The notes under the pieces are model-generated. The model did not search any database. It was given only the letters and a program-made list of their open reading frames with translations, and was not told the DNA's origin. The position numbers and the translations under genes were made by a program. This document shows positions 8,685 through 46,887 of a DNA stretch of 51,386 nucleotides, piece by piece (the first letter of the stretch is position 1; the number at the start of each line of letters is the position of its first letter). This stretch comes from a virus: positions 1 to 51,386 of IMG/VR virus record IMGVR_UViG_3300036790_000208; one strand, 5' to 3'.

Positions 8685-11600
8685 CGCGCCGCCGACGGGG
8701 AGCGCTGCAGCGCGTACGTGAGCTTGCTGCTGCGCGCCAGCTCGTCGATGCTGCTGTGCAGCCAGCGGCTCAGCTCAGCCTGCGACCCGATCACGCCCTC
8801 GTTGTGCAGGTGCACGTGGACCTGGCCGCCGCTCCCGCCGCGGGGGATGACCTGGTGCGGGATGACCTGCTCGCCGCCGCGGAAGTTGACGATCTCCGGG
8901 CCGTTCTCGCCGACCACGGCCAGGCCCGCCCGCGCCGAGCTGGTGCCGTTCGCGTAGCCGTGGCCGTGGCCGAGCACGCCCAGCCAGCCGGGGTTGCCGT
9001 AGCGGTGAACCGCGTAGTTCACCCCGGCGAAGATGTTCGCCTCCGGGTCGTAGATGTTGCTGCTCAGCGACGGGCTGCGGTAGGCGGCGAAGGTCTCGGA
9101 GATGACCTGCATCAGCCCCTTGGACGGGTCGCCGCGCTGCGCGTTGATGTCAGTCAGGTTGATCGCGTTCGGGTTCCCGCCGCTCTCGGTCTGGATCTGG
9201 GACATCACCGTGGGCAGGTCAGCCTGCGGCAGCCCGAGCCAGCTGAGCACCTTTGACACGTCGGGCTCCCACTGGGTGACCCCCGCGACCTTGCTGTACG
9301 CCACCGGGGTGCCCGCGGCCGCCGCGGCGGCAGCCGCTGCCCTGGCAGCCGTGAAGAACGCGGCCACCTCGCCCTGCACCCACGACCCCGCCCAGCCGCC
9401 GGCCGCGCCGCTCCCCTGGGCACCCGCCCACGGCGGCGCGTCAACCAGGCCGCCGGCCGCGTAGCCGGGCACCCCGGCCGCGGAGAACACCCCCGCCAGC
9501 TTCTTCGACGTCACCTTGTCGACGACCGTCTCGCCCGACTCCAGCAGCGCCGGGTGGACATCGCCGCCGCCGAAGCCGGGCAGCTTCCCGCCGGCCGCCA
9601 GGTGGCTCAGCTTGAAGATCCTCGCGGGCAGCCCGACGGCGGACGCCACGATCGCGCCCTCGCCGCCGATGGTGACGTCCACCGCCACCGTCTTGCCCTT
9701 CAGCCCGGCGATCTGCTGCTGCAGCCCGTTCACCAGCTTGGTGGCGGCCTGCCCGTAGATTCCCACCTGGTTCAGGTCGGCGATCAGCTTCGCCCGGTCG
9801 CCCTGGGTGGCGCTGGACTGGGTGCCGGTCCGCAGGACCGCGGTGGCCAGGTTGTTGACGTCCGTGTTGACGGACGGCGTGAACTCGCCCAGGGCCTTCA
9901 GGTTCGCGGTGAAGTTGTCCTTGATGGTGGCGGCTGCCGCCGCCGTCTGGGCGTTCAGCCCGGCGGTGGAGTGCGCCCACGTGTCGTAGTCCCTGGTCAG
10001 CCCCTGGACGTCGGCCCGCTGCGCCGGGGTCAGGTTGTGCAGGCTGTTCAGCCGGTCGATGTTGGTCTGGTAGTAGGCGTTGACCTGCGCGACCGACGCG
10101 CCGTTCTTCTGCAGCGTGCCCACGCCCTGGCCGATGGAGCTCACGTAGGACAGGAAGTCGGACTGCGACGTGAGGCTCTGCGCGCCGCTGCTCTTCACCT
10201 CGGTAACCAGCGCCTGGAATGCCTGGGAGGTCGCCAGGACGGCCTGCTGGTCGCTCACTGAGTTGCCCACCAGCAGGTTCCACGCGTCGGTGAACGCGTT
10301 CAGCTGCGCGGCCGCCCCGAGCGTGTTGTTGCCCAGGGTGGAGACATCGGCGGCGAGCTGCTGGGTCGGGGTCTTCGCCGCCAGGTTCGCGTTCGCGTAC
10401 CCCTCGATGGCCGTCATGGCGGCCCGCGCCGACGCGCCGCCGCCCGCCAGCGCCTGGTTGGTCTGCTTGGCCGCGGCGATGAGCGCCTCCGCCTGGTCAG
10501 CCGACAGGCCGTACTTGTCCTCCAGGGTGACCAGGCTGTCGCCGAGGGAGGTCGAGGCGGTGGCCAGGCTCATGGTGCCGGTCGCCGCGTCGCCCGTGGC
10601 CCTGCCGATTCCCGTGACCTCGGAAATCGCGAGCTTGCTGCTGGCCAGCAGCCTGGTGAACATGTTGCCGCTGTTAGTCTGCACCGCGGCGGCGTTCACC
10701 GACGTGGTGGACAGGGACGGGTTGAGGGTGTCCAGCGCCTTGAGCGCCAGGGTGGCGTCGTCGGCGACGGTCAGCAGCCCCTGGGCGGCCGGCTGGAGCT
10801 CCTCGAGCAGCTGGGGAAGGTCGTTCAGCAGGTCGGTGAACAGGCTGCCGACCAGCTGGATGTCCGGCCCGGCGCTTTGCGCCATGAACCCGAAGAACTG
10901 CTGCCACTGCTGGGTTTTCAGGTCGGCGCTGATGTCGCCGACCAGGACGCCCAGGGCCTTCCCGGTCGCGGCAGCCACCGGCTCGACGTCGCCCAGCAGC
11001 CCGTCGGCGAGCTTCAGCCCCTGGTTGAAAACGCCGAGGGTCTCCGGCTCCAGCGCCTTGGCGAACCCGCCGAACTGGGACTTCAGCGCGCCGAGGGAGT
11101 CGTAGGCGGCTTTCTGCGCCGGGTCAAGGCCGGCGAGGGCCTGCTGCTGCGCCTTCGTCGCGGTGCCCGCGGCCAGGATGGGCGCGACCGCCGCGGCCGC
11201 GGCCGCCCCGAACCCGGCGAGGCCGACCGACGTCGTCACCATCACCGGGGCGAGCAGCACCCCCGCGCCGACTAGCGCGCCCATCGGGCTGGCCAGCAGG
11301 CCGAGCGACGACGAAGCGCCCTCAGCCGACCCTCCCTTGCCGCCGACCTTGTCGAGCGCCACGTCGACGGCGGACAGCTCGGCGACCGCCTTCGCGGTGC
11401 CCTGCACGTCAAGGTTCGGGGTCGACGTCTTGTGGTCGAGGTCGATCAGGCGGGCGTCGATCGCGTCGAGCTGCGCCTGCGCCTCCTTGTTGCCGTCGAG
11501 GCTGACCCTCGCGGCGGCGACCTTCCCGTTCAGCTCGTCCAGGCGCAGCTTCAGGCCGCCGAGGCTGCCGGAGGCGTCGTCGGCGGAGCCGGCCAGGGCA

Positions 11601-26695: not shown

Positions 26696-26880
26696 AGGGG
26701 AACTCCGTACTTCCGCAGGTAGTGCGCCCGCTCGGCTTCCTTGCGGTGCCGGTACGTGAACGAGGGCAGCCAGTCCAGCCAGCAGCTAACGCCGTCGTGG
26801 CATGCGCGGTGCCACAGGCGCCCGGAAAGCTTCTCCAGCTTCCACCACGCCTCGGCGCGGACGCCCAGCCACTCGCTCAC
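26692..26880 (-). CDS. 62-aa protein interposed in split terminase
   Basis: GTG 26880 overlaps the ATPase stop, and its own stop overlaps the nuclease start (both GTGA). Trp-rich and basic: VRAEAWWKLEKLSGRLWHRA and CHDGVSCWLDW; ends AERAHYLRKYGVPL. Not recognised. Its place between the two terminase halves suggests an assembly or regulatory partner. Confidence 0.65.
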   Translation of the reverse strand: MSEWLGVRAEAWWKLEKLSGRLWHRACHDGVSCWLDWLPSFTYRHRKEAERAHYLRKYGVPL

Positions 26881-27800
26881 AGCAGGCCGCCCTGCGCCGC
26901 CGACGCGCCCCACGCGTCCTCGCCGATTACTCCCCAACCGGGCTTGGCGACCTCCGGCCATTGGCAACCGTAGGCCCGGCGAAACTCGCTCAAATCCATT
27001 AGCCCGAGGTCCGTCGCCACCGTCTCCTCGCTCACCGTGATGCCTAGCGCCGGCATCCGCCGCCGCCACGTCACCGGGTCCGCCGGGTCCTCGTCGTCGG
27101 CGAACGAGTAGCCGACGTAGCAGCCGCCCTCCGTCACGCCCATCTCAGCGCGCGCCCGGCCGTCCTCCACCTTCCCCCGGAAGTACGAGGACTTCTCCGT
27201 GCCCGCCGCCGACACCACCCACAGCTGCGCGTCCCGCGTCATCATCGCCGGGCGCATCGCCTGCTCCAGGTGGTCGTCCTGCTGCGCCCACGCCTCGTCG
27301 ATCACGCCCAGGTCCAGGTTGTCACCGTGACCGCTGGTCTGCGTGTTGCTGACCAGGCCCAGCAGCGACCCGTTCGCGAACACCAGCGCCTCGCTGCCCG
27401 AGCCCTTGCGGATGCCGATCAGCGGCGCCAGCTTGCTCGCCTGGATCCGCGGCCACCACACGTCAAGCAGCCGGTGCCGCGCGTCGAGCCGCGTCTGCGC
27501 CGTGTACGCGATCTGCGTCCCCGGCCGCCGCAGCCCACGCGCGATCATCATCGACAGCAGGTCAACGCTCTTGCCCTGCTGCCGCATCACCTCCAGCACC
27601 ACCTGCCGGTAAGCGAAGCGGCCGTCCGGCTTCAGCTCCGTCGCGACCGCGTTCACCTCGTGCTGCCACGGCATCAGGCCCAGGCCGGCCGACGTGCGGA
27701 ACTTGAGCAGCTCCGCCGTACGCGCGATCCCGTCAGTCAGGTTCGCCCGGCCCGGCGTCGCCGGGGTCGCGAACCTGGGCTTGCAAGGCGTCGAGTTCAC
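26877..27800 (-). CDS. Terminase large subunit, separate ATPase-domain polypeptide
   Basis: 307 aa from GTG 27800 behind AAAGGA. Q motif region MPWQHEVNAVATEL; Walker A VVLEVMRQQGKSVDLL; Walker B DLGVIDEAWAQQDD; coupling motif LWVVSAAGTEKSSYF. It ends just where the nuclease domain normally begins (PEVAKPGWGVIGEDAW). It drives DNA into proheads through the portal. Confidence 0.9.
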   Translation of the reverse strand: MNSTPCKPRFATPATPGRANLTDGIARTAELLKFRTSAGLGLMPWQHEVNAVATELKPDGRFAYRQVVLEVMRQQGKSVDLLSMMIARGLRRPGTQIAYTAQTRLDARHRLLDVWWPRIQASKLAPLIGIRKGSGSEALVFANGSLLGLVSNTQTSGHGDNLDLGVIDEAWAQQDDHLEQAMRPAMMTRDAQLWVVSAAGTEKSSYFRGKVEDGRARAEMGVTEGGCYVGYSFADDEDPADPVTWRRRMPALGITVSEETVATDLGLMDLSEFRRAYGCQWPEVAKPGWGVIGEDAWGASAAQGGLL

Positions 27801-28900: not shown

Positions 28901-29221
28901 CTACCAGCGCCGCGCCTGCTGCCACTGCCGCGCCAGCCCGCGCATCCGGTTGGCCGTGCGCGCCCCGTCGGCCCGGTTGCAGGACCTGTGCGCCAGGCCG
29001 GGCAGGTAACCGCTCCGGTCAGGCTTGTGCGGCAGGTCCACGAAGCGCCGCACCATCGACGGCGGCCACAGGATCGGCTGCCCGCAGTGCGCGCACATGT
29101 CGCCCGGCCGGTACAAGCGCAGCCTGCGCTCGCGCTCAGCCTGGTGGCTGCGGCCGTAGCCGCGCTGCGTGGTCGTGCCCTTGCGCGCGTACCGCTGGTA
29201 AGCGCGTCGGCTGGGTGCCAT
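28901..29221 (-). CDS. HNH endonuclease, terminase-associated type
   Basis: 106 aa from ATG 29221 (GTG 29233 also possible). GTTTQRGYGRSHQAERERRL, CAHCGQPI, then VDLPHKPDRSGYLPGLAHRS and CNRADGA form a standard small HNH domain. Such genes next to terminase are usual in cos-packaging phages, where they assist DNA cleavage. Confidence 0.85.
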   Translation of the reverse strand: MAPSRRAYQRYARKGTTTQRGYGRSHQAERERRLRLYRPGDMCAHCGQPILWPPSMVRRFVDLPHKPDRSGYLPGLAHRSCNRADGARTANRMRGLARQWQQARRW

Positions 29222-29450
29222 CAGTCGGGCCACTCGGCGACGGCCACTTCTCGCCCCGGTACTGCACCGCCGACTGGTGAAGGCGGCACGGGCAGTACGG
29301 GTGCGTCCGGTCGGTTGACAGGCCGTGCGGGCACTGTGACGCCGACCGCGGCGGAGGGGACGCGAAGCGCCGCGACGGAGGGGGCATGAGGCACCCGAGG
29401 ACGGCGCCGGCGGGGATGATCAGCAGGATCAGCAGCGACCACCAGCCCAT
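29136..29450 (-). CDS. Membrane protein with Cys motif (104 aa)
   Basis: ATG 29450 overlaps the upstream stop (TAATG). Hydrophobic start MGWWSLLILLIIPAGAVLGC, then SQCPHGLSTDRTHPYCPC, a likely metal site. The last ~28 codons overlap the HNH gene in another frame. Not recognised. Confidence 0.55.
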   Translation of the reverse strand: MGWWSLLILLIIPAGAVLGCLMPPPSRRFASPPPRSASQCPHGLSTDRTHPYCPCRLHQSAVQYRGEKWPSPSGPTDGTQPTRLPAVRAQGHDHAARLRPQPPG

Positions 29451-30556: not shown

Positions 30557-30709
30557 TCACTCGCAGGTGCACGGGCAGTGAAAGCGCCCGTAGTCATCCT
30601 CGCCACACTGCGCTGGGACACAGCCCGCCATGGTGCAGCATGTGCAGCTGTCGCACATCTCGTCTCCGGCACTGTCCGGGTAGGCCAGGCCGCCACCAGC
30701 TTCGCTCAT
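30557..30709 (-). CDS. Cysteine-rich microprotein (50 aa, 9 Cys)
   Basis: ATG 30709 overlaps the hydrolase stop. The second half reads MCDSCTCCTMAGCVPAQC... and FHCPCTCE: nine cysteines in about 33 residues. Metallothionein-like metal binding is possible; no family recognised. Confidence 0.6.
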   Translation of the reverse strand: MSEAGGGLAYPDSAGDEMCDSCTCCTMAGCVPAQCGEDDYGRFHCPCTCE

Positions 30710-31254
30710 CACGCCTCCAGCTTCACGTTCCAGCCGCGCTCCATGATCAGCGCGCACCAGTCGGCCGGCTCGCAGTCGCGGTCAGGCACCTGCGGGCACT
30801 CCCACCCGTACAGCCGGTACAGGAACGCGGCGAAGCTGCTGCACACCACGTGACCGGGCACAACCCCGCCGACCGTCGAGCTGAACAGGTCGCCCATGCG
30901 GAACGCGCGCAGCGTGTCGTCGGTGATCGCCTCCCAGTCGTAGGCGGTGCCGAGCATGTGCTGCGCCTCGGCGGCGACCTGAGCCCGCACAGCGTCCGTG
31001 CGGCCCGGCTGCGCGCAGTTGTCCAGCGTGTACGGGCTGGCCGCGTAGCCGCGCAGGTCGGCCCAGCCGACGCCGCCCGGCTTGCCCTCCAGGCCCCACG
31101 GGACGTCGCCCTGCCAGTGATGGAAAATTGCGACGTGGTTTTCCATGCCGGGCTTGCCGGACAGCTCCTCGCCGACGCGGATCAGCCCGGCGGCCACGCC
31201 GTCGCCGCGGACGGCGAGGACGTCACCCGGCTTGAGGATCGCTTGCAGGTTCAT
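30709..31254 (-). CDS. Permuted NlpC/P60 (YiiX/papain-like) hydrolase
   Basis: 181 aa from ATG 31254. LKPGDVLAVRGDGVAAGLIR, the His in MENHVAIFHHW (about 40) and then the Cys in GHVVCSSFAAFLYRLYGW follow the permuted His-before-Cys order of YiiX-type proteins. These cleave amide or thioester bonds. It lies among early genes, so lysis is less likely than modification of a host target. Confidence 0.65.
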   Translation of the reverse strand: MNLQAILKPGDVLAVRGDGVAAGLIRVGEELSGKPGMENHVAIFHHWQGDVPWGLEGKPGGVGWADLRGYAASPYTLDNCAQPGRTDAVRAQVAAEAQHMLGTAYDWEAITDDTLRAFRMGDLFSSTVGGVVPGHVVCSSFAAFLYRLYGWECPQVPDRDCEPADWCALIMERGWNVKLEA

Positions 31255-31258
31255 CGTG

Positions 31259-31603
31259 TTATCTCTCCTGTCCGGTCCACGGGAGCACGAGGCCGTCGCC
31301 CGCGCGCCGTGGCACGACGTGGATGTGCAGGTGGAACACGGTCTGCGTGGCATCGCGGCCGGCCGACGTGATGAAGTTGGCCGCGCCCAGGTTCATCTGG
31401 TTGGCCAGGTAGCCGGCGAACCGGAGCGCGCGGCCGGCAGCGGAAGGTGACTCAAGGGCGTTCGACACGTGCTTGGTCGGCACGACGAGGAAGTGACCGG
31501 GCGTGACCAGGCTGAGCGGCTGGAAGGCCACGTTGGCGTCGTCGTCGTAGTAGTCGTACTCGCCGCGCTTGATGCGCCCGCAGAACACGCAGTCCGCGTT
31601 CAC
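31259..31603 (-). CDS. HIT-family nucleotide hydrolase
   Basis: 114 aa from GTG 31603, overlapping the RyR stop. CVFCGRIKRGEY is the zinc start, PGHFLVVPTKHV the substrate loop, and VFHLHIHVVPR the histidine triad. HIT enzymes hydrolyse dinucleoside polyphosphates or nucleoside phosphoramidates. Rare in phages; its coupling to a RyR-domain protein and a DNA methylase suggests nucleotide-signal handling or counter-defence (inference). Confidence 0.9.
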   Translation of the reverse strand: MNADCVFCGRIKRGEYDYYDDDANVAFQPLSLVTPGHFLVVPTKHVSNALESPSAAGRALRFAGYLANQMNLGAANFITSAGRDATQTVFHLHIHVVPRRAGDGLVLPWTGQER

Positions 31604-31971
31604 GAGACGGCCCGCATCCGCTGCGCCTGCGCGGTCAGCGCCACGGTGACGGCGCGGAGGATCCGGTCCTTGGCCTGCTGCCGCTCGGGAAGCTGCGCGT
31701 AGGGGAGCAGGCACGGGTGGGTCTTCAAGGTGCGGTCCTTGGCGGGCCCGTAAACCCAGCCCTGGGCGCGCTTGCCGTCGCACCACGCGTCGTGGAGCGC
31801 CTGCGCGGGCAGGCCGTCGCGGGCGAGGCGGACACCCCGGATGGTGAGGGCGCGGACGGCGGGGTCCTCGGACGCCCACGGCGGTGACGGGCACTCGTCG
31901 CCGTCGATGTCCTGGATGGCCCGGTTCGCCTCGTGGACGACGCGGGCGACCTCCTCGTCGGTGTAGGTCAC
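31600..31971 (-). CDS. RyR-domain protein
   Basis: 123 aa from GTG 31971. The RyR domain (ryanodine-receptor repeat family, also in bacteria and phages) is clear at about 28-110: PSPPWASEDP, LHDAWCDGKRAQGWVYGPAK, KTHPCLLPYAQLPE and AKDRILRAV. It has been proposed as a ligand sensor linked to nucleotide-based conflict systems. Coupled by 4-base overlaps to the methylase and HIT genes. Confidence 0.85.
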   Translation of the reverse strand: MTYTDEEVARVVHEANRAIQDIDGDECPSPPWASEDPAVRALTIRGVRLARDGLPAQALHDAWCDGKRAQGWVYGPAKDRTLKTHPCLLPYAQLPERQQAKDRILRAVTVALTAQAQRMRAVS

Positions 31972-33185
31972 GGTGCTGCCTCCTGGATGGTGAAAAGCGA
32001 GCCCTGCCCGTCGGTGACGGGCGGGGGCTTGGGCACGCACATGGCCCTGGCGCGCTCTGCGGGGTCGCTGGTGCGCCAGCGGGCAAGGCGGCAGTAGTCG
32101 GCCGAGCGGTCAACGCTGATGCCCGTGCGGCCGTGCACGGCCGCGACTAGGGCAGTCGTGCCGGTCCCGCCGAACGGGTCGAGCACCACGGCCGGGCGCG
32201 CCGGCGCGTCAGGCTTCGGGCAGGCGCAGGCGTAGCCGGTGATGGTCACGCGGTCGCGGTACTCGACGGCAGTGGCGATCTTGCCGGTGTGCTCGCCGTT
32301 GCGCGTCGCGTCGCGTCGGGTATGCGATCCCATGCGACCGGCGCCGCGGTGATATTCGGGCGTCTTGCTGGTCATCGGCCGTCGTCCCTCGCCGCACTCC
32401 GTGCAGATCCCGGACGGCGACCAGCCGAGGATCGCCCGGCGCGGCAGCTCCATCGGGAACGCGGCGAAGTGGTCCACGCCGAGGTGCGCGGGCACGGTCA
32501 GCGGCTGCGACGGGATCTCCCAGACGGAGCCGGGCAGCTTGCCGAGCGGGTTGAGCTCACGCTCGGGTGTGGCGTGCCATGTCGGATGACCGTCCTTGCC
32601 GCCTGTCTTGCGCCCGTGACGCTCGCCTAGCGTGGCCTGCGGCTCCCGCACCTCGTCGACGGCCGCGAAGTAGCGCGGCTGCTTCGTGAGGTGGAACACC
32701 TGCTCGTGCGAGCGGCGCACGCGGTCGGTGACGCTCTCAGGCAGCCCGTTCGGCTTGGCCCACACGATCTCCGCGCGCAGGATCAGGCCGAGGTCGTCCA
32801 TGCAGCCGAGGGCGTAGCGCCACGGCAGGCCGAGCAGCGACTTCGCGGGCATCCCATCCTGCGGCCGGGCGACGGAGGCGCCCGACTTGTCGCGCCGCCA
32901 GGTGGCGTCATAGGTGGCCCGGCCGCCGCTGGCGTACTTGTCGCCGAGGTTGACGAAGATCGACCCGGACGGCTTGAGCACGCGCACCCACTCGCGGGTG
33001 CAGTCCAGTAGCGCATCGGTGAACTCGCGCGGCGTCGCCTCGCTGCCGATCTGCCCGGCGTAGTGCTCGCCGCCGTCGCTGTACGACCGGAGGCCGAAGT
33101 ATGGTGGCGAGGTTACGATCAGGTCCACGCTCTCGTCCGCCAGCGGCAGGCTCGCGGCGTCGCCGCGCAGGATGACCGCGCTCAC
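31968..33185 (-). CDS. DNA methyltransferase, beta-class (N4-C or N6-A)
   Basis: 405 aa from GTG 33185. Catalytic TSPPY (25-29) precedes the SAM motif DPFGGTGTT (336-344), the beta-class order. Between them LRAEIVWAKPNGLP and a metal-type insert (CTEC...CAC) may hold part of the target-recognition region. No restriction partner nearby; probably protects phage DNA or regulates. Confidence 0.9.
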   Translation of the reverse strand: MSAVILRGDAASLPLADESVDLIVTSPPYFGLRSYSDGGEHYAGQIGSEATPREFTDALLDCTREWVRVLKPSGSIFVNLGDKYASGGRATYDATWRRDKSGASVARPQDGMPAKSLLGLPWRYALGCMDDLGLILRAEIVWAKPNGLPESVTDRVRRSHEQVFHLTKQPRYFAAVDEVREPQATLGERHGRKTGGKDGHPTWHATPERELNPLGKLPGSVWEIPSQPLTVPAHLGVDHFAAFPMELPRRAILGWSPSGICTECGEGRRPMTSKTPEYHRGAGRMGSHTRRDATRNGEHTGKIATAVEYRDRVTITGYACACPKPDAPARPAVVLDPFGGTGTTALVAAVHGRTGISVDRSADYCRLARWRTSDPAERARAMCVPKPPPVTDGQGSLFTIQEAAP

Positions 33186-33814
33186 GCTGCCACCGGCCCG
33201 GTAGCGCGGATGATGTCGCGGCCGAGTTTCAGCCACTGGGTGGCGTCCCACTCGTGACCGCACCCGGCGCAGCCGACCATCGACGGGCGCGGGTCACCGG
33301 GGCCCGTGTAGACGATCGCGGCCAGGCCCCCGGCGGCCTCGCACCTGGGGCAGCGGTTCAGCGCCGCAGGGACGGTGATCCGCACCGCCGGGCGCGGGTC
33401 GAGCAGCGCGACAGCACGGCCCCGGTCGGCGGCGATTGCCCCGGCCATGTCGCCCGCCCACGGGCGGAACGACGCCCAGCGGGCCTGCCCGGCGAGCCAC
33501 CCGGCCAGCGCCGGAACGGTCGGCACCGGCCACGCCATGGGCTGGCGCTCGGTGATGACCTGCCGGGTCCAGACCTGGAGGTCGTGGCGGACCTGGCTCA
33601 TGGCCTCGGCGGCGGCGTCGTTGTACGGGAGCCCGTCGCCCTGGCCGTGGCCGTCGCCGGTGACGCGCGGGTCGAGCAGCTCGGCGAGGTCCGCGTAGAG
33701 CGCCGGGAGGCGGCGCAGGTCGCGGGTCATGCCGGCGGTGCAGGGGCGGCACAGGCGCGCGCCGGGCTCGGCGGGCTCCGGCTCGTCGTGGCGCGGCGCG
33801 AGGCAGTTGGTCAT
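33182..33814 (-). CDS. Zinc-finger protein of unknown role (210 aa)
   Basis: ATG 33814 overlaps the upstream stop (GTG 33817 also possible). N-terminal C..H and CRPCTAGM, C-terminal NRCPRCEAAGGL and GCAGCGHEW: two CxxC pairs. Middle part helical with several Trp. Similar proteins are common in Streptomyces phages; function unknown. Confidence 0.65.
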   Translation of the reverse strand: MTNCLAPRHDEPEPAEPGARLCRPCTAGMTRDLRRLPALYADLAELLDPRVTGDGHGQGDGLPYNDAAAEAMSQVRHDLQVWTRQVITERQPMAWPVPTVPALAGWLAGQARWASFRPWAGDMAGAIAADRGRAVALLDPRPAVRITVPAALNRCPRCEAAGGLAAIVYTGPGDPRPSMVGCAGCGHEWDATQWLKLGRDIIRATGPVAA

Positions 33815-34233
33815 CACATGCCGTCCGGGATGCCGATGAGGTCGCGGGCGGCGCGCTCCACGGCGTTCATCCCGGCGGCGGGTGCAGGCCGCGCCTGCTG
33901 CTCCAACGCGCGGACGGCGATCTTCCGGAGAGCGGCGATCCCGTTGCCGACCTCGCCTCCGGAGATTTTCTCCAGCGCCATGCGGTACTGGTTGCGCTCG
34001 GTGGCGATCTTGGCCAGCTCAAGGTCGGGCGCCGCGTGCTCCCGCTCGTCGGCGCGGATGATCGGCTCGATGGCTTCCGCGATCGCGCTGGCGACGGCTT
34101 GCCGGTCGGACAGGATCATGAACAGATCGTCGGGGAGCGCCCTTGTGAGCGCGTTGAACGCGTGAGCGTGGACGCGGTACTCGATGCTGGTGGGGTCAAT
34201 CCCCGGCCCCGGTGTCGGCGTCGGCGCGCCCAT
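33814..34233 (-). CDS. Hypothetical protein (139 aa)
   Basis: Contains VASAIAEAIEPIIRADERE and LELAKIATERNQYRMALEKI, a helical pair; a related ERNQLRMVL-type block occurs in the protein at 35010-35783. Unknown role. Confidence 0.65.
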   Translation of the reverse strand: MGAPTPTPGPGIDPTSIEYRVHAHAFNALTRALPDDLFMILSDRQAVASAIAEAIEPIIRADEREHAAPDLELAKIATERNQYRMALEKISGGEVGNGIAALRKIAVRALEQQARPAPAAGMNAVERAARDLIGIPDGM

Positions 34234-36301: not shown

Positions 36302-36712
36302 TCAGCCGACCTCGCGGCCTACGTGCAGCGTGGCGGGGTCGAAGCGGCGCGGCCCGGATTCCAGGGCTGGCCTGGCTGGCGCGGGCGGCCTCGGTCCCGC
36401 GAGCGACCTGACGGCGCGCGGGTGGCAGGCGCACATGCACCAGCTCACGCGGCAGTCGCCGTGGTCCTCGCCACGGCAGGCGTTCGAATGGGGCCGGGCC
36501 GCTGACCGCGCCGACGCGATCTCCGCGATGATCTCTGACGGCGAGACGAACGGCTGCCGCGCGTTGATCGCGGCGGCGGCCCGCTTGCACTCGCCGAATT
36601 CGAGGTGGCCTAGCACGTCGTGCCATGCGAGCCCGGTGGTGCTGCCCATTCGCTGCTGGGGAAACAAGTCGCCCACGTACTTGGCGAGGTTGACGCATTC
36701 CTCGCGTGTCAT
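36302..36712 (-). CDS. Replication accessory protein, helicase-loader candidate (136 aa)
   Basis: ATG 36712 overlaps the replisome organiser stop (ATGA). Helical N-terminus VNLAKYVGDLFPQQRMG and FGECKRAAAAINARQPFVSP resemble small loader-type proteins found after initiator genes; the Cys/His block HSNACRGEDHGDCRVSWCMC follows. Assignment mostly by position. Confidence 0.5.
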   Translation of the reverse strand: MTREECVNLAKYVGDLFPQQRMGSTTGLAWHDVLGHLEFGECKRAAAAINARQPFVSPSEIIAEIASARSAARPHSNACRGEDHGDCRVSWCMCACHPRAVRSLAGPRPPAPARPALESGPRRFDPATLHVGREVG

Positions 36713-37554
36713 CGGGCAGCCTCCTGCTCGTCCAGGGCGCGCGCTATGCGGCGCAGCTCGTTGTAATCGGTGTCGCTCGGCTGCCGGGATGACTTGCCCG
36801 ATGCGGCTTTCATCTTGCGAATGGCATCGAGGCGGAGGCGGTCGTATTTCTCGCGGAGCGTGGGCATCGACATGATGTTGCCGCGCCAGAATTCGTCATC
36901 CTGGCTCCAGTCGATGCAGGCGCTTACCTGTTCCTCGGTGCGGCCGTCCTTGTCGATTAGGAGGCGGGCGGCGTCGCGCCATTTCTTGCTGACAACGGGG
37001 CGCTTGCTGCCGTTGGCCGCGATGCGGTCAGCGAGCCGGGCGCAGAGTCGCTCGACGTCGGGGCGGTCGGGGAGCGACGGCGGCTTTGCCGGCGTCTCTT
37101 TAACCTGCTCCAGAGAACTACCTGTAACAGTCAAAAGAATGTCGGAGATTTCTACCCCGGTCGTTTTGACCGGGGTTCCGTTGACCTGCGGTTCTTCGGT
37201 AGGTCCGGTCATTTTGACCGGGGTAGGGGTCCGGTCATTTTGACCGGGGTCAGCCGGGGGTCCGGTCATTTTGACCGGGGTAGGTCCGGTCATTTTGACC
37301 GGGGTCAGCGTCGGCGCGTACCGGCTGATGCCGCCCGGCCGGGGCTCCACGGACAGCTCCCCGAGTGCTTCCAGGGCCTCGACGGAACGCCGCACGCCCT
37401 TATCTGAAAGGCGGCACTTGGCCATCAGCTGGGCCACGCTCATCTCCGTGAATTCCCCCTCTCCGCATTCATCCGCAATTGCCAGCAGGACAATCAGTGA
37501 GCCATTCGAGGCGCGCGAATTCTCCCAAGCCCATTTCGTCGCGCCGGTTGCCAT
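36709..37554 (-). CDS. Replisome organiser / replication initiator with internal iterons
   Basis: 281 aa from ATG 37554 behind AGGAAGG. The N-terminal winged helix (ENSRASNGSLIVLLAIADEC, SVAQLMAKCRLSDKGVRRSV) is typical of phage initiators. The linker has repeats TPVKMTGP and a shifted-frame copy GQNDRT. The C-terminal helical domain (ADRIAANGSKRPVVSKKWRD, NIMSMPTLREKYDRL) resembles loader-binding domains. The divergent HTH gene and operators lie upstream. Confidence 0.75.
   Translation of the reverse strand: MATGATKWAWENSRASNGSLIVLLAIADECGEGEFTEMSVAQLMAKCRLSDKGVRRSVEALEALGELSVEPRPGGISRYAPTLTPVKMTGPTPVKMTGPPADPGQNDRTPTPVKMTGPTEEPQVNGTPVKTTGVEISDILLTVTGSSLEQVKETPAKPPSLPDRPDVERLCARLADRIAANGSKRPVVSKKWRDAARLLIDKDGRTEEQVSACIDWSQDDEFWRGNIMSMPTLREKYDRLRLDAIRKMKAASGKSSRQPSDTDYNELRRIARALDEQEAAR
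37155..37302. repeat. Five palindromic iterons; candidate replication origin
   Basis: CCGGTCATTTTGACCGG is perfectly repeated at 37205-37221, 37231-37247, 37262-37278 and 37286-37302. A variant, CCCCGGTC-gtttt-GACCGGGG, lies at 37155-37175. Each is an inverted repeat with 7-bp arms (8-bp in the variant). Spacings of 26, 31 and 24 bp put one copy in a different reading frame, so DNA sequence rather than protein is conserved. A/T-richer DNA at 37105-37155 could be the unwinding element. Layout recalls lambda ori inside gene O. Confidence 0.75.
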
Positions 37555-39701: not shown

Positions 39702-40559
39702 TCAGTCCTCTCGGTATGCCCAGTAGGGCAGGTCAAGCAGCTCGATCTCCGGGCTGTAGCCGGGCCAGATGCCCGACTCGGTGCAGTCGCGGTAGATCTC
39801 CATGGCGCGCTCGGCGTCCTCGCGGCCCTTGCGGAGGGCGGCGGGGTCGAGCTCGTAGACGGCGACGCGGTAGGGCGCGGTGCGCTCCTGGGCGATCAGG
39901 GCGTAGCCGGGCATCGCGCCGATGCGGTCGCCGAACACGGCGACGTAGCCGGCGCTGTAGACGTACGCCTGGAGGTAGTAGCGGAAGTCCGCGACGGACC
40001 TGGCGAACTTCGCCGGGGCCGCGCCGTCCTTGGCCGTCGTCTTGTAGTCGCCGATGACGGGCCGGTACCGGGGGTCGGGCTCGGGCATGTGGTCCCAGCG
40101 GCAGCGCCACCAGGTGCCGTATGCCGGGTCGGTCCAGAACGCGGACATCTCCGGGCGTCCGGGCTGGGCGAGCAGCTGGGATGCGCGCTTGTGCTCGCGG
40201 AGCCGGGCGGCCATGGCCGTGACGGTGGCCAGCTCCTTGGTGAGCAGCGGCAGCTTGCCCTTTGCCCGCTCAGCGTCGGCCTCGTCTTGCGCCTTCTTGC
40301 CGCGCCAGTTGTCGGCCTTGACCTCGTGCAGTTCCTGGCCGGTGCCGAGTACCAGCTTGTGCGCGGCGGTGCCCAGCTCCATCTCCTTGGACGGCTCGGG
40401 CGGGTGCTCGCGCTCGTAGGCGTACAGCTCAGGGCCGCCGTCGGCGAGCAGCTTCTTCGCGCCGCTGTAGCTGAGGCTGCCGCCCTTGACGGGGTCCCGG
40501 TGGTAGGCGTCCTCCGGGATGTCGTAGACGCCGGGCTCGGTCACGATGAACTCAGCCAC
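39702..40559 (-). CDS. RecE/RecB-like PD-(D/E)XK exonuclease
   Basis: 285 aa from GTG 40559. LSYSGAKKLLADGGPELY and LGTAAHKLVLG (62-72) are the N-terminal signature; then Glu137 (RPEMSAFW), RWDHM and VIGDYKT with Asp171 and Lys173 form the nuclease site; YYLQAYVYSAGY is the QxxxY motif. Degrades double-stranded ends for recombination or replication with the annealing protein. Confidence 0.85.
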   Translation of the reverse strand: MAEFIVTEPGVYDIPEDAYHRDPVKGGSLSYSGAKKLLADGGPELYAYEREHPPEPSKEMELGTAAHKLVLGTGQELHEVKADNWRGKKAQDEADAERAKGKLPLLTKELATVTAMAARLREHKRASQLLAQPGRPEMSAFWTDPAYGTWWRCRWDHMPEPDPRYRPVIGDYKTTAKDGAAPAKFARSVADFRYYLQAYVYSAGYVAVFGDRIGAMPGYALIAQERTAPYRVAVYELDPAALRKGREDAERAMEIYRDCTESGIWPGYSPEIELLDLPYWAYRED

Positions 40560-44350: not shown

Positions 44351-45772
44351 CTACGCCGGGTCCAGGCGGACGTCCTGAACGCGGAAGCCCGGGCCTCGGC
44401 CGGAGGCGGGCAGCACCGTCACGCGGTAGCACGCGGCGACCAGGGCGCGGCGCACCTCAAGCGGCAGCCCCGGCCAGTCCTCGCGGGTGATCCCCGCGTA
44501 CCGCTCGAGCAGCCGGGTGCGCGAGTCGCCAGCCTCGCGCTTGCGGAGCTGCGCCATGCGCGCGTCGATCGAGTCGAGGCGGCCGAGCAGCAGGGGCAGG
44601 CGGCCGGACGACGCGGCATAGTCCCGGGTGAGCCTTTCCGTTTCCGCGCGCTCTCTTGTCAGCGCGGCCCACTCCGGCGCCAGGTCCGGCTCCGGGATGT
44701 CCGGCTCCGGGTTGCGCGGGTCGTTCAGCCGCGCGACAACCCGCGCGCCGACGTAGGCATCAAGGTGCAGCATGTTCCGCGCCACCTTCCGGCAGCCGGC
44801 GCGCACGCAGGCGTAGTTAAGGCTGACACTCCCGGTGCGCCCGCTGTACTTGCGCTGCATCCCGGACCCGCATACCCCGCACACGGCGACGCCGGACAGG
44901 AGCGACCGTACCGTGCTGGACACGTTCGGGTACCTTGCCGCCCGCGCCTCGAGGGTGACGCGCAGCGCCTCCCACGTCGCCCGCTCGAGGATGGGCTCCC
45001 ACGTGCCCTGCGAGCCGTCCGCGAGCAGCCCAGCGATCCGCGGGCGCAGCAGCACCCGCCTCAGGTTCGCGTAATCCAGCGGGACGCCGCTGACCGACGT
45101 GACGCCGCGGGCGGACAGGTCGGCGGCGACGGAGCTGAGCGTCTCGCCGGCGAGGACGCGGGCAGCCGCCTCTCGCAGCGCGTGCGCCTCTTCCGGCACC
45201 GGGACCCGGCCGGCGGTGTTGTAGCCGAACCCGCGGCCCCACCGGCCGCCGGCCGCCGGCGCGATGCCCTCGAGCGCCATCCGCGCGAACCCGTCCTTCT
45301 TGCGCCGGGAGATGTCGTCGGACTCCAGGCACGCCTTGGCGGTCAGGATGCGCAGCACGAACCTGTCGGTTGGGACGTCGAGCCGGTAGTCGCCGGAGCC
45401 GCTCGCGATGATCATCCCGCGCTGGTCGGCGAAGTTCAGGAGGAGCTCCAGGTCCCACGGCTGCCGCACCAGCCGGTCACCGTGGTAGATGACGAGGTGG
45501 CTGAGCAGCCCGGCCTCCACGTCGGCGAGCATCCGGTCCCAGCCGGGCCGCTTGCGTCCCCGCTGCCACGCCGACCTGTTGTTGTCGATGTACGCCCCGT
45601 TGGGGTCCGGGTACCCGACACCCTCGGCGACCGCCCAGTTGCGCCCGGCGGCGATCTGGCGGCAGATGCGCTCCTGCTCGTCCACCTTGGTCTGGTCGCG
45701 GACGCGGCGCCCCATGATGTCCCGCAGGCTGGCGAGTGACAGGCGACCGTAGATTCCGGCAACTTCAGGCAC
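44351..45772 (-). CDS. int: Large serine integrase
   Basis: 473 aa from GTG 45772 behind GGAAGCGAGG. Resolvase domain with catalytic Ser12 (YGRLSLAS) and HGDRLVRQ (Arg100, Arg103); recombinase domain ~150-260; zinc ribbon with Cys298, Cys301, Cys322 and Cys327; coiled coil ~375-430; short C-terminus. Length is close to the ~470-aa actinophage serine integrases. It joins attP to a host attB. No adjacent tyrosine integrase. Confidence 0.93.
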   Translation of the reverse strand: MPEVAGIYGRLSLASLRDIMGRRVRDQTKVDEQERICRQIAAGRNWAVAEGVGYPDPNGAYIDNNRSAWQRGRKRPGWDRMLADVEAGLLSHLVIYHGDRLVRQPWDLELLLNFADQRGMIIASGSGDYRLDVPTDRFVLRILTAKACLESDDISRRKKDGFARMALEGIAPAAGGRWGRGFGYNTAGRVPVPEEAHALREAAARVLAGETLSSVAADLSARGVTSVSGVPLDYANLRRVLLRPRIAGLLADGSQGTWEPILERATWEALRVTLEARAARYPNVSSTVRSLLSGVAVCGVCGSGMQRKYSGRTGSVSLNYACVRAGCRKVARNMLHLDAYVGARVVARLNDPRNPEPDIPEPDLAPEWAALTRERAETERLTRDYAASSGRLPLLLGRLDSIDARMAQLRKREAGDSRTRLLERYAGITREDWPGLPLEVRRALVAACYRVTVLPASGRGPGFRVQDVRLDPA

Positions 45773-45884: not shown

Positions 45885-46283
45885 GTGAGCAGGCCACTGT
45901 TCCCGGTCGAGGACCTTTCATATATTCCTGATGACTGGCTTGAGGCGTTTCTGCTGGTGACCGCTGAAGACGGCGGCGACCCGGATTCCAGGTTCGCCTC
46001 CGAGATTCAGGCGATTTTCAGGATGCGGGACATTCAGGCGCGCGAAGGGCGCTGCCTTGTCGTGCACCCCAAGGCCGCCCGCGCCGAGAAACTCAGGCGC
46101 GAGGGCAGGCCGGTCCCTGTCGAGCGCGACCAGCTTTACGAGCGGGACGGCGGCACCTACGAGGTCGGCCGCGTGTCGGTCAAGGCGGGATGGGCCGAGC
46201 TGCGCACGGACGGCGCACCGCATGCGAAGCGGCACCCGCTGCCGCTGCACGCAGACTTCCGGCTCATCGGGTGGGCGCACTGA
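45885..46283 (+). CDS. Hypothetical protein with DWL/MRxIxAR domain (132 aa)
   Basis: GTG 45885 follows AGGAGG by six bases. Residues 15-55 (DDWLEAFLLVTAEDGGDPDS, IFRMRDIQAREGR) resemble the 51-aa product of the next gene. The rest is basic then beta. Family not recognised; first gene of the plus-strand module. Confidence 0.65.
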   Translation: MSRPLFPVEDLSYIPDDWLEAFLLVTAEDGGDPDSRFASEIQAIFRMRDIQAREGRCLVVHPKAARAEKLRREGRPVPVERDQLYERDGGTYEVGRVSVKAGWAELRTDGAPHAKRHPLPLHADFRLIGWAH

Positions 46284-46690
46284 TGGGGCAGCCGGCGCGT
46301 TTCGAGGATGACCCGGACTGGCTGCGTGCCCGTGCGGTGTACCTGGACCCGGACGCCAACACCCCGGACGGCCGGCTGTTCATCCGGTTCGACGCCGCGC
46401 GGGAGATGCGGAACATCGAAGCCCGCTACGAGCCGTAAGACCGGCCGCTCGGCGACGAACGTGCCCTTGCCCATCGCGGCGACCAGCACGCCGCGGGCGG
46501 CGAGCAGCTTCATGGCGTCGTTGATCGTGGAGTAGCCGACTTCCCACTCCTCGGCGAGCTGCCGGCCGGCTGGCAGCTTGTCACCGGGTGCCAGGTCGCC
46601 GCGCTCCACGGCGCCGGCGACGTGGTCCGCGATCTGCTGCTTGAGCGGGACGGGCGATGAACGGCGCAGGTCAGGACGGGTGAGTGCCAT
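46157..46690 (-). CDS. GntR-family regulator
   Basis: ATG 46690 (46699 possible). Residues 1-85 are a full GntR winged helix: PVPLKQQIADHVAGAVERGD, LPAGRQLAEEWEVGYSTIND and AMKLLAARGVLVAAMGKGTF. No effector domain. The frame then continues ~94 codons antisense to the two plus-strand genes before its stop; that part is probably not informative. GntR (KorSA-type) regulators commonly repress transfer genes in actinomycete conjugative elements, matching the DUF2637/FtsK genes here. Confidence 0.75.
   Translation of the reverse strand: MALTRPDLRRSSPVPLKQQIADHVAGAVERGDLAPGDKLPAGRQLAEEWEVGYSTINDAMKLLAARGVLVAAMGKGTFVAERPVLRLVAGFDVPHLPRGVEPDEQPAVRGVGVRVQVHRTGTQPVRVILETRRLPHQCAHPMSRKSACSGSGCRFACGAPSVRSSAHPALTDTRPTS
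46283..46438 (+). CDS. Small paralogous protein (51 aa)
   Basis: ATG 46283 overlaps the previous stop (TGATG). DDPDWLRARAVYLDPDANTP and DGRLFIRFDAAREMRNIEAR align with residues 15-55 of the preceding product, which suggests a tandem duplication of one module. Overlaps the GntR frame on the other strand. Confidence 0.6.
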   Translation: MGQPARFEDDPDWLRARAVYLDPDANTPDGRLFIRFDAAREMRNIEARYEP

Positions 46691-46768
46691 GCAGGGCATG
46701 TTAAAGCCTACCTGACCTGCGGAAAGATCCGGTAAGCCTTGGCGGGCCTTGCAGGGCATTCCAAAGCG
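46690..46768. promoter_or_regulatory. GntR operator candidates (direct repeats)
   Basis: TGCAGGGCAT-gtt-AAAGC (46690-46707) recurs as TGCAGGGCAT-tcc-AAAGC (46750-46767), exactly 60 bp apart. The first overlaps the GntR start codons. A TTGACA at 46783-46788 lies just downstream, facing the transfer genes. An autoregulatory region is likely. Confidence 0.55.
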
Positions 46769-46782
46769 CGCGTACATTGGCC

Positions 46783-46817
46783 TTGACAAACCGCCGAAAA
46801 CGCGGCGGGCCGCCGCG
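46783..46817 (+). promoter_or_regulatory. TTGACA element and perfect GC palindrome
   Basis: TTGACA (46783-46788) is a perfect -35, but no clear -10 follows. CGCGGCGG-g-CCGCCGCG (46801-46817) is a perfect 17-bp palindrome in the 5' leader of the DUF2637 gene. Possible operator or leader hairpin. Confidence 0.35.
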
Positions 46818-46887
46818 GTGCGCAAACACCAGCGACGGCCCGGAGGCAGAGCCTCACCCCTACCTGACTTCACCAGGAGAGGCCCAG

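Follow-up and report, generated by a model that had tools for sequence, protein, structure and literature searches.

Do three phage genes that overlap one another by four bases, and that encode a DNA methyltransferase (MTase), a RyR-domain protein (RyR) and a HIT protein (HIT), form one machine against host immunity, or does a single one of them act there next to independent neighbours? The question arises from a sequence-only reading, which described an early counter-defence island, made as a unit, that captures and hydrolyses a host immune nucleotide. The window, that is, the whole stretch of DNA analysed here, is the IMG/VR record IMGVR_UViG_3300036790_000208 (51,386 bases, 70% G+C).

The gene trio and its phage genome

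The three genes and their GTGA overlaps are present as described, in a span (31259-33185) whose last base is the MTase start, and all three products have clear family matches. The features of the locus and of the phage modules around it are as follows.

44351-45772, minus strand: serine integrase
39702-40559, minus strand: exonuclease VIII
36709-37554, minus strand: replication initiator
33182-33817, minus strand: conserved 211-aa gene that borders the swap site upstream (91% identity to the copy in sister phage L001)
31968-33185, minus strand: DNA methyltransferase, 405 aa, N6_N4 class (PF01555, E 1.3e-33)
31968-31971, minus strand: GTGA stop/start overlap from MTase to RyR
31600-31971, minus strand: RyR-domain protein, 123 aa (PF02026, E 1e-12)
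31600-31603, minus strand: GTGA stop/start overlap from RyR to HIT
31259-31603, minus strand: HIT protein, 114 aa, HINT-like (PF01230, E 1.4e-13)
31319-31333, minus strand: HIT catalytic motif H91-L-H93-I-H95
30709-31254, minus strand: conserved 181-aa gene that borders the swap site downstream (92% identity to the copy in L001)
28901-29233, minus strand: HNH (packaging gene)
26877-27800, minus strand: terminase

The portal, major head and tape-measure genes also lie on the minus strand. The phage is temperate, since a serine integrase is part of its phage gene set, and its host probably belongs to the Actinomycetota, to judge from its base composition and from the hosts of related phages. A megablast search of window positions 28-38 kb against phages gives no match, and so relatives were drawn from IMG/VR. 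On one side of the RyR site is the replication-initiation gene (36709-37554), on the other are the packaging genes for HNH and terminase, a position that makes the term "early" doubtful. Elsewhere in the window, a GntR-type regulator (46157-46873) adjoins the serine integrase region, and a glycosyltransferase-like gene (PF13524; 13804-14847) and a GDSL-type lipase/acylhydrolase (PF13472; 4802-5545) are found amid the structural genes.

A GTGA overlap (33182-33185) likewise closes the 211-aa gene upstream of MTase, and about 39 candidate RTGA junctions, many of which join plausible genes, emerge on the minus strand when positions 26-49 kb are scanned, indicating that the GTGA overlap is the usual gene packing of this phage. 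Functional coupling by way of the overlap is therefore rejected. The RyR gene has a good Shine-Dalgarno sequence of its own (AGGAGG), and the claim that the three proteins must be made together goes too far. No Shine-Dalgarno sequence is visible for the HIT gene, the translation of which could be coupled to that of RyR through re-initiation. The 181-aa gene starts 4 bases past the HIT stop codon, and its product is a possible permuted papain-like C92 hydrolase, the match to Peptidase_C92 (PF05708) being weak (E 0.16; 12.4 bits, below the cut-off of 27).

The RyR protein and the RyDEP family

The RyR protein scores 48.5 bits against PF02026 (curated cut-off, 27.4), and its residues 28-107 match PDB entry 35TM with an E value of 2.1e-10. 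Entry 35TM contains the structure deposited for RyDEP, which is gp78 of Mycobacterium phage DyoEdafos (PMC13232231). Phage PF02026 proteins (RyDEP) were shown in a 2026 preprint to act on the Thoeris signals 2'/3'cADPR, either by hydrolysing or by sequestering them (PMC13232231). By an inverting glycosidase activity, which resides in the RyR domain itself, RyDEP converts 2'cADPR and 3'cADPR to ADPR and so defeats Thoeris (PMC13232231). Among eight other phage PF02026 proteins, six bind 2'/3'cADPR, two show no such binding and none cleaves; phages are rescued from Thoeris by the RyDEP glycosidase and also by two homologues of the sponge type (PMC13232231). His-75, Trp-78, His-100 and Asp-117 of DyoEdafos gp78 align with His-60, Trp-63, His-85 and Asp-102 of the window RyR, the codons of which are listed together with those of a variant segment in helix 2.

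31846-31857, minus strand: RyR codons 39-42, helix 2 (V39, L42)
31792-31794, minus strand: H60 codon, equivalent of the RyDEP catalytic H75
31783-31785, minus strand: W63 codon, equivalent of RyDEP W78 (adenine stacking)
31717-31719, minus strand: H85 codon, equivalent of RyDEP H100 (phosphate contact)
31666-31668, minus strand: D102 codon, equivalent of the RyDEP catalytic D117

The alignment comprises DyoEdafos gp78 and 17 other phage RyRs, and a wider set comprises 45 sequences, in all 45 of which the positions of H60, W63, H85 and D102 are invariant. A first RyR profile (A2) was too divergent for scanning and was replaced by a second one (A3). As a separate observation, the adenine-stacking W is replaced by R in the RyR of Pectobacterium phage phiA41 (L028:2791-3339), whereas the near-identical protein of Pectobacterium phage Nepra keeps it. 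The window RyR is 37% identical to the Nepra protein, 32% to its Ruegeria phage kin and 26% to DyoEdafos RyDEP. The RyR tree is built on few columns, is weakly supported and has DyoEdafos on a long branch, and nothing is therefore drawn from it except that the window groups with its sisters.

An AlphaFold (AF2) model of the RyR monomer (pLDDT 94.1) shows the same four helices as RyDEP, at residues 5-23, 37-51, 56-69 and 96-122; a homodimer made through helices 1 and 4 is a further trait of the family. The model matches RyR Repeat12-type chains with Z scores of 8.0-8.6 over 116-121 residues (8.0-8.5 for RyR3 Repeat12 in AMP-PCP/inhibitor complexes), values that helical bundles can also reach by chance. 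In agreement with the sequence match, the top structural ranks are mostly RyR chains. The window RyR is thus most likely a further member of the RyDEP family, a placement that carries experimental support at the level of the family and is to be read in the light of the 26% identity to the characterised enzyme and of the preprint status of the source. The part of the sequence-only reading that gave RyR a counter-defence role against an immune nucleotide of the host holds at this family level, given the published activities and the conserved pocket residues (PMC13232231).

From these characterised relatives, the family, fold and pocket residues of which are all found in the window RyR, we infer its ligand. 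RyR would be made during infection of the probably actinobacterial host and would bind the Thoeris messengers 2'cADPR and 3'cADPR in a pocket formed by helices 2-3 together with H60, W63, H85 and D102. The free concentration of the bound messengers would then fall, so that the NAD-depleting effector would stay untriggered. RyR would act here either as a sponge or, with lower probability, as a hydrolase of the ribose-ribose bond. There is fairly good reason to believe that the window RyR is such an anti-Thoeris immune-evasion protein of the RyDEP family, resident at a swap site at which HIT and MTase are separate cargo.

Helix 2 of the window RyR departs from the rest of the family. A Q found in 41 of 45 phage RyRs is V39 here, an S found in 42 of 45 is L42, and both changes are shared only by the window and the two sister phages. 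The counterpart of L42 is RyDEP Q54, one of the residues mutated in the published work (PMC13232231). Other aligned phage RyRs have S or G there, indicating that Q54 is not a family-defining residue. Because two near-universal polar residues of helix 2 are lost, one of them at the Q54 position, the ligand or affinity of the window RyR may differ. It is accordingly conceivable, but unlikely, that RyR binds a different nucleotide, be it an ADPR derivative of another defence system or an adenine nucleotide of the cell, and leaves cADPR-based Thoeris unblocked. The replacement of residues present in about 92% of the aligned phage RyRs points in this direction, as do structure entries in which animal RyR Repeat12 binds ATP, ADP and AMP-PCP; however, the four ligand-contacting residues named in the preprint are all kept, and 2'/3'cADPR is bound by most of the phage homologues assayed (PMC13232231).

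Somewhat less likely still is that the window RyR is a glycosidase of the RyDEP type, which converts 2'/3'cADPR to ADPR instead of holding it. The equivalents of the catalytic dyad, H60 and D102, are in place; however, this dyad is present in every aligned phage RyR, yet none of the eight homologues assayed cleaved (PMC13232231), and the window protein has L42 at the Q54 position. The NARP1 partners Adps and Namat, whose genes flank RyR in DyoEdafos, have no match in the window, and none turns up at distances of up to 10 kb from 80 viral RyR loci; a NARP1 partnership of the window RyR is rejected on this ground. Since, among the dyad-bearing proteins, cleavage has been seen for DyoEdafos RyDEP only and the window RyR is without Q54, the anti-Thoeris protein would probably be a sponge rather than an enzyme.

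Neighbour exchange and co-occurrence

MTase carries the motifs SPPY and DPFGGTGTT, with the FxGxG pattern read in its sequence, and matches the PADLOC MTase_II model with an E value of 8.6e-60. Copies that are 49-66% identical occur in more than 20 viral contigs, and the nearest one (66%) belongs to a 124-kb phage, where it lies 2.5 kb from the RyR gene. MTase most likely modifies the phage DNA against restriction.

HIT belongs to the HIT superfamily by its PF01230 match, its HxHxH motif and its HIT fold, and its model gives Z scores of 14.4 to a HIT hydrolase, 13.6 to HINT1 and about 11 to FHIT. HIT proteins of the HINT type act on phosphoramidate or phosphoanhydride bonds, not on a ribose-ribose bond. 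The closer likeness to HINT than to FHIT therefore suggests hydrolysis of nucleoside phosphoramidates or adenylates, and the model suggests a HINT-like nucleotide phosphoramidase. The nearest HIT relative found (81-83% identical) is in a record without RyR (L002), and apart from HIT this record shares only some short stretches with the window. HIT proteins called ThsC accompany 2.4% of Thoeris loci and have been proposed as an off-switch for v-cADPR (PMC8565338). The PADLOC ThsC match of the window HIT (residues 35-97; 21.4 bits, E 4.1e-5) is partial and generic, and so a strict ThsC identity is not accepted; a link to ADPR is conceivable from this match and from the presence of HIT proteins at some Thoeris loci. 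No ThsA or ThsB is recognised among the HIT neighbours scanned, and a literature search for other links between HIT proteins and phages gave no result.

Two sister phages show how this site varies. The gene orders are as follows.

Window: 211-aa gene, MTase, RyR, HIT, 181-aa gene
L001/L166 (IMGVR_UViG_3300036855_000036): 211-aa gene, 72-aa orf, RyR, N6/N4 methylase, 181-aa gene
L167 (IMGVR_UViG_3300036800_000076): 211-aa gene, 150-aa CGSTRF protein, RyR, C5-like methylase, 181-aa gene

The genes that adjoin RyR in L167 are the following.

9552-10004: 150-aa CGSTRF-motif protein, just before RyR (no database match)
10369-11022: C5-like DNA methylase, just after RyR (phrog_363, E 3.8e-31)

The CGSTRF motif is one that we take to resemble nucleoside deoxyribosyltransferases. 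The RyR of L001/L166 is 96% identical to that of the window, and the N6/N4 methylase of the same phage, with 257 aa, differs from the window MTase; the RyR of L167 is 74% identical. At the DNA level, identity to the sisters is 86-93% over the 211-aa border gene and 73-92% over the matching parts of the 181-aa border gene, and that of the RyR gene is 96% in L166 and 84% in L167. This homology breaks off near gene ends, and neither of the two sisters has HIT at the site. Since the sisters keep RyR and the flanks and differ in the neighbours of RyR, HIT and MTase are swappable cargo, and with the nearest HIT relative in a record without RyR and the nearest MTase relative 2.5 kb away from RyR, each gene of the trio has travelled separately. 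RyR is most likely the resident gene of a cassette-swapping site between the replication and packaging modules, and HIT and MTase are unrelated, separately acquired cargo genes. A specific association of RyR with a methylase was considered because a methylase touches RyR in the window and in both sisters, and was rejected for two reasons: the methylase is not the same in the three phages, differing in its sequence, its class or its place, and RyR and HIT loci have an MTase (as detected by similarity to two queries) within 10 kb equally often, 8 of 80 in each case.

Wider surveys agree with the sisters. HIT is found in none of 50 whole RyR-bearing viral contigs and in none of 16 RyR-bearing isolate phages (12 and 4 more), and RyR in 2 of 50 whole HIT-bearing contigs; many of the surveyed contigs are fragments, so that absence from any single one is no proof. 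Among contigs selected for MTase, 2 of 39 have RyR and 2 of 39 have HIT above the cut-off, and against these neither the frequency of HIT in RyR contigs (Fisher, p 0.19) nor that of RyR in HIT contigs (p 1.0) is significantly different. No HIT and no similar MTase occurs within 8 kb of 75 RyR loci in cellular genomes. Two large contigs combine the genes at a distance. In the 124-kb G065 (IMGVR_UViG_3300036818_000105; L041, L117), MTase, RyR and HIT follow in that order on one strand, non-adjacent and spread over about 16 kb, with MTase 66% and HIT 67% identical to the window copies; the 98-kb G006 (L006/L074/L103) has two HIT genes and one RyR gene far apart. The co-occurrence on which the sequence-only reading had staked its proposal thus failed to appear, and a coupled HIT/RyR/MTase machine is not supported.

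These data also bear on the remaining explanations. There is little to recommend the view that the genes are self-acting nucleotide housekeeping genes with no role against defence: HIT is common in actinophages (262 phage records) and has no known phenotype there, but RyR has anti-Thoeris phenotypes at the family level, and the site swaps its cargo between sisters as accessory genes would. Slightly weaker is a two-step disposal operon, in which RyR captures or linearises the nucleotide, HIT hydrolyses it further and the methylase gives parallel cover against restriction. The RyR-HIT overlap, the lack of an obvious Shine-Dalgarno sequence for HIT, the gene order in G065, the published ThsC proposal (PMC8565338) and the weak ThsC match would all fit such an operon, which is nevertheless improbable, since sisters with the same RyR carry no HIT, HIT and RyR are no more frequent in each other's contigs than in the MTase-selected ones, the 75 cellular loci have no HIT nearby, the closest HIT relatives are in other contexts, and a HINT fold points to chemistry on P-N or P-O-P bonds. 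Hydrolysis by HIT of a signal captured by RyR consequently finds no support, and of the capture-and-hydrolyse island there stands only the action of RyR on an immune nucleotide, at the family level, whereas the coupled module falls with the sisters and the co-occurrence counts. Least probable of all is a capture-and-destroy pair unlike RyDEP, which cleaves by itself: the V39/L42 clade of RyR would recognise some immune nucleotide that is not 2'/3'cADPR, for removal by the neighbouring HIT.

Significance and comparison with known systems

The anti-Thoeris reading places a counter-defence gene of the RyDEP family in a temperate, probably actinobacterial phage. In three sister phages the anti-immune gene is kept, and methylases and nucleotide enzymes are swapped on both sides of it. 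The helix-2 change of the window clade could help to map what tunes the choice between sponge and enzyme or the choice of ligand. The locus also carries a warning that adjacency and 4-base overlaps are a poor guide to function.

Among known systems, MTase shares its domain and motifs with the phage orphan N6/N4 DNA methyltransferases (phrog_67), which are widespread in actinophage contigs, with no notable difference. HIT resembles the HINT-branch hydrolases human HINT1 and E. coli HinT in its PF01230 domain, its HxHxH motif, a CxxC near the N-terminus and Z scores of 13-14, and differs from them in being encoded by a phage; the actinophage genes annotated as histidine triad nucleotide binding protein have the same HINT-branch features. 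ThsC, the HIT accessory of some Thoeris loci, has the superfamily in common with the window gene, which is phage-borne and gives a partial 21-bit match. The sponge-type RyDEP homologues of Ruegeria and Pectobacterium phages share the family and the conserved pocket residues with the window RyR, which has L42 where the Ruegeria and Pectobacterium phage kin have S; the preprint names its sponge H7 just as a Pectobacterium phage protein, which may differ from both Pectobacterium copies aligned here. RyDEP itself (DyoEdafos gp78) is 26% identical to the window RyR, has Q54 in place of L42 and differs in context, the window gene lying outside any NARP1 operon; the two have in common the PF02026 domain, the equivalents of H75, W78, H100 and D117, the four-helix fold and the form of a small stand-alone phage protein.
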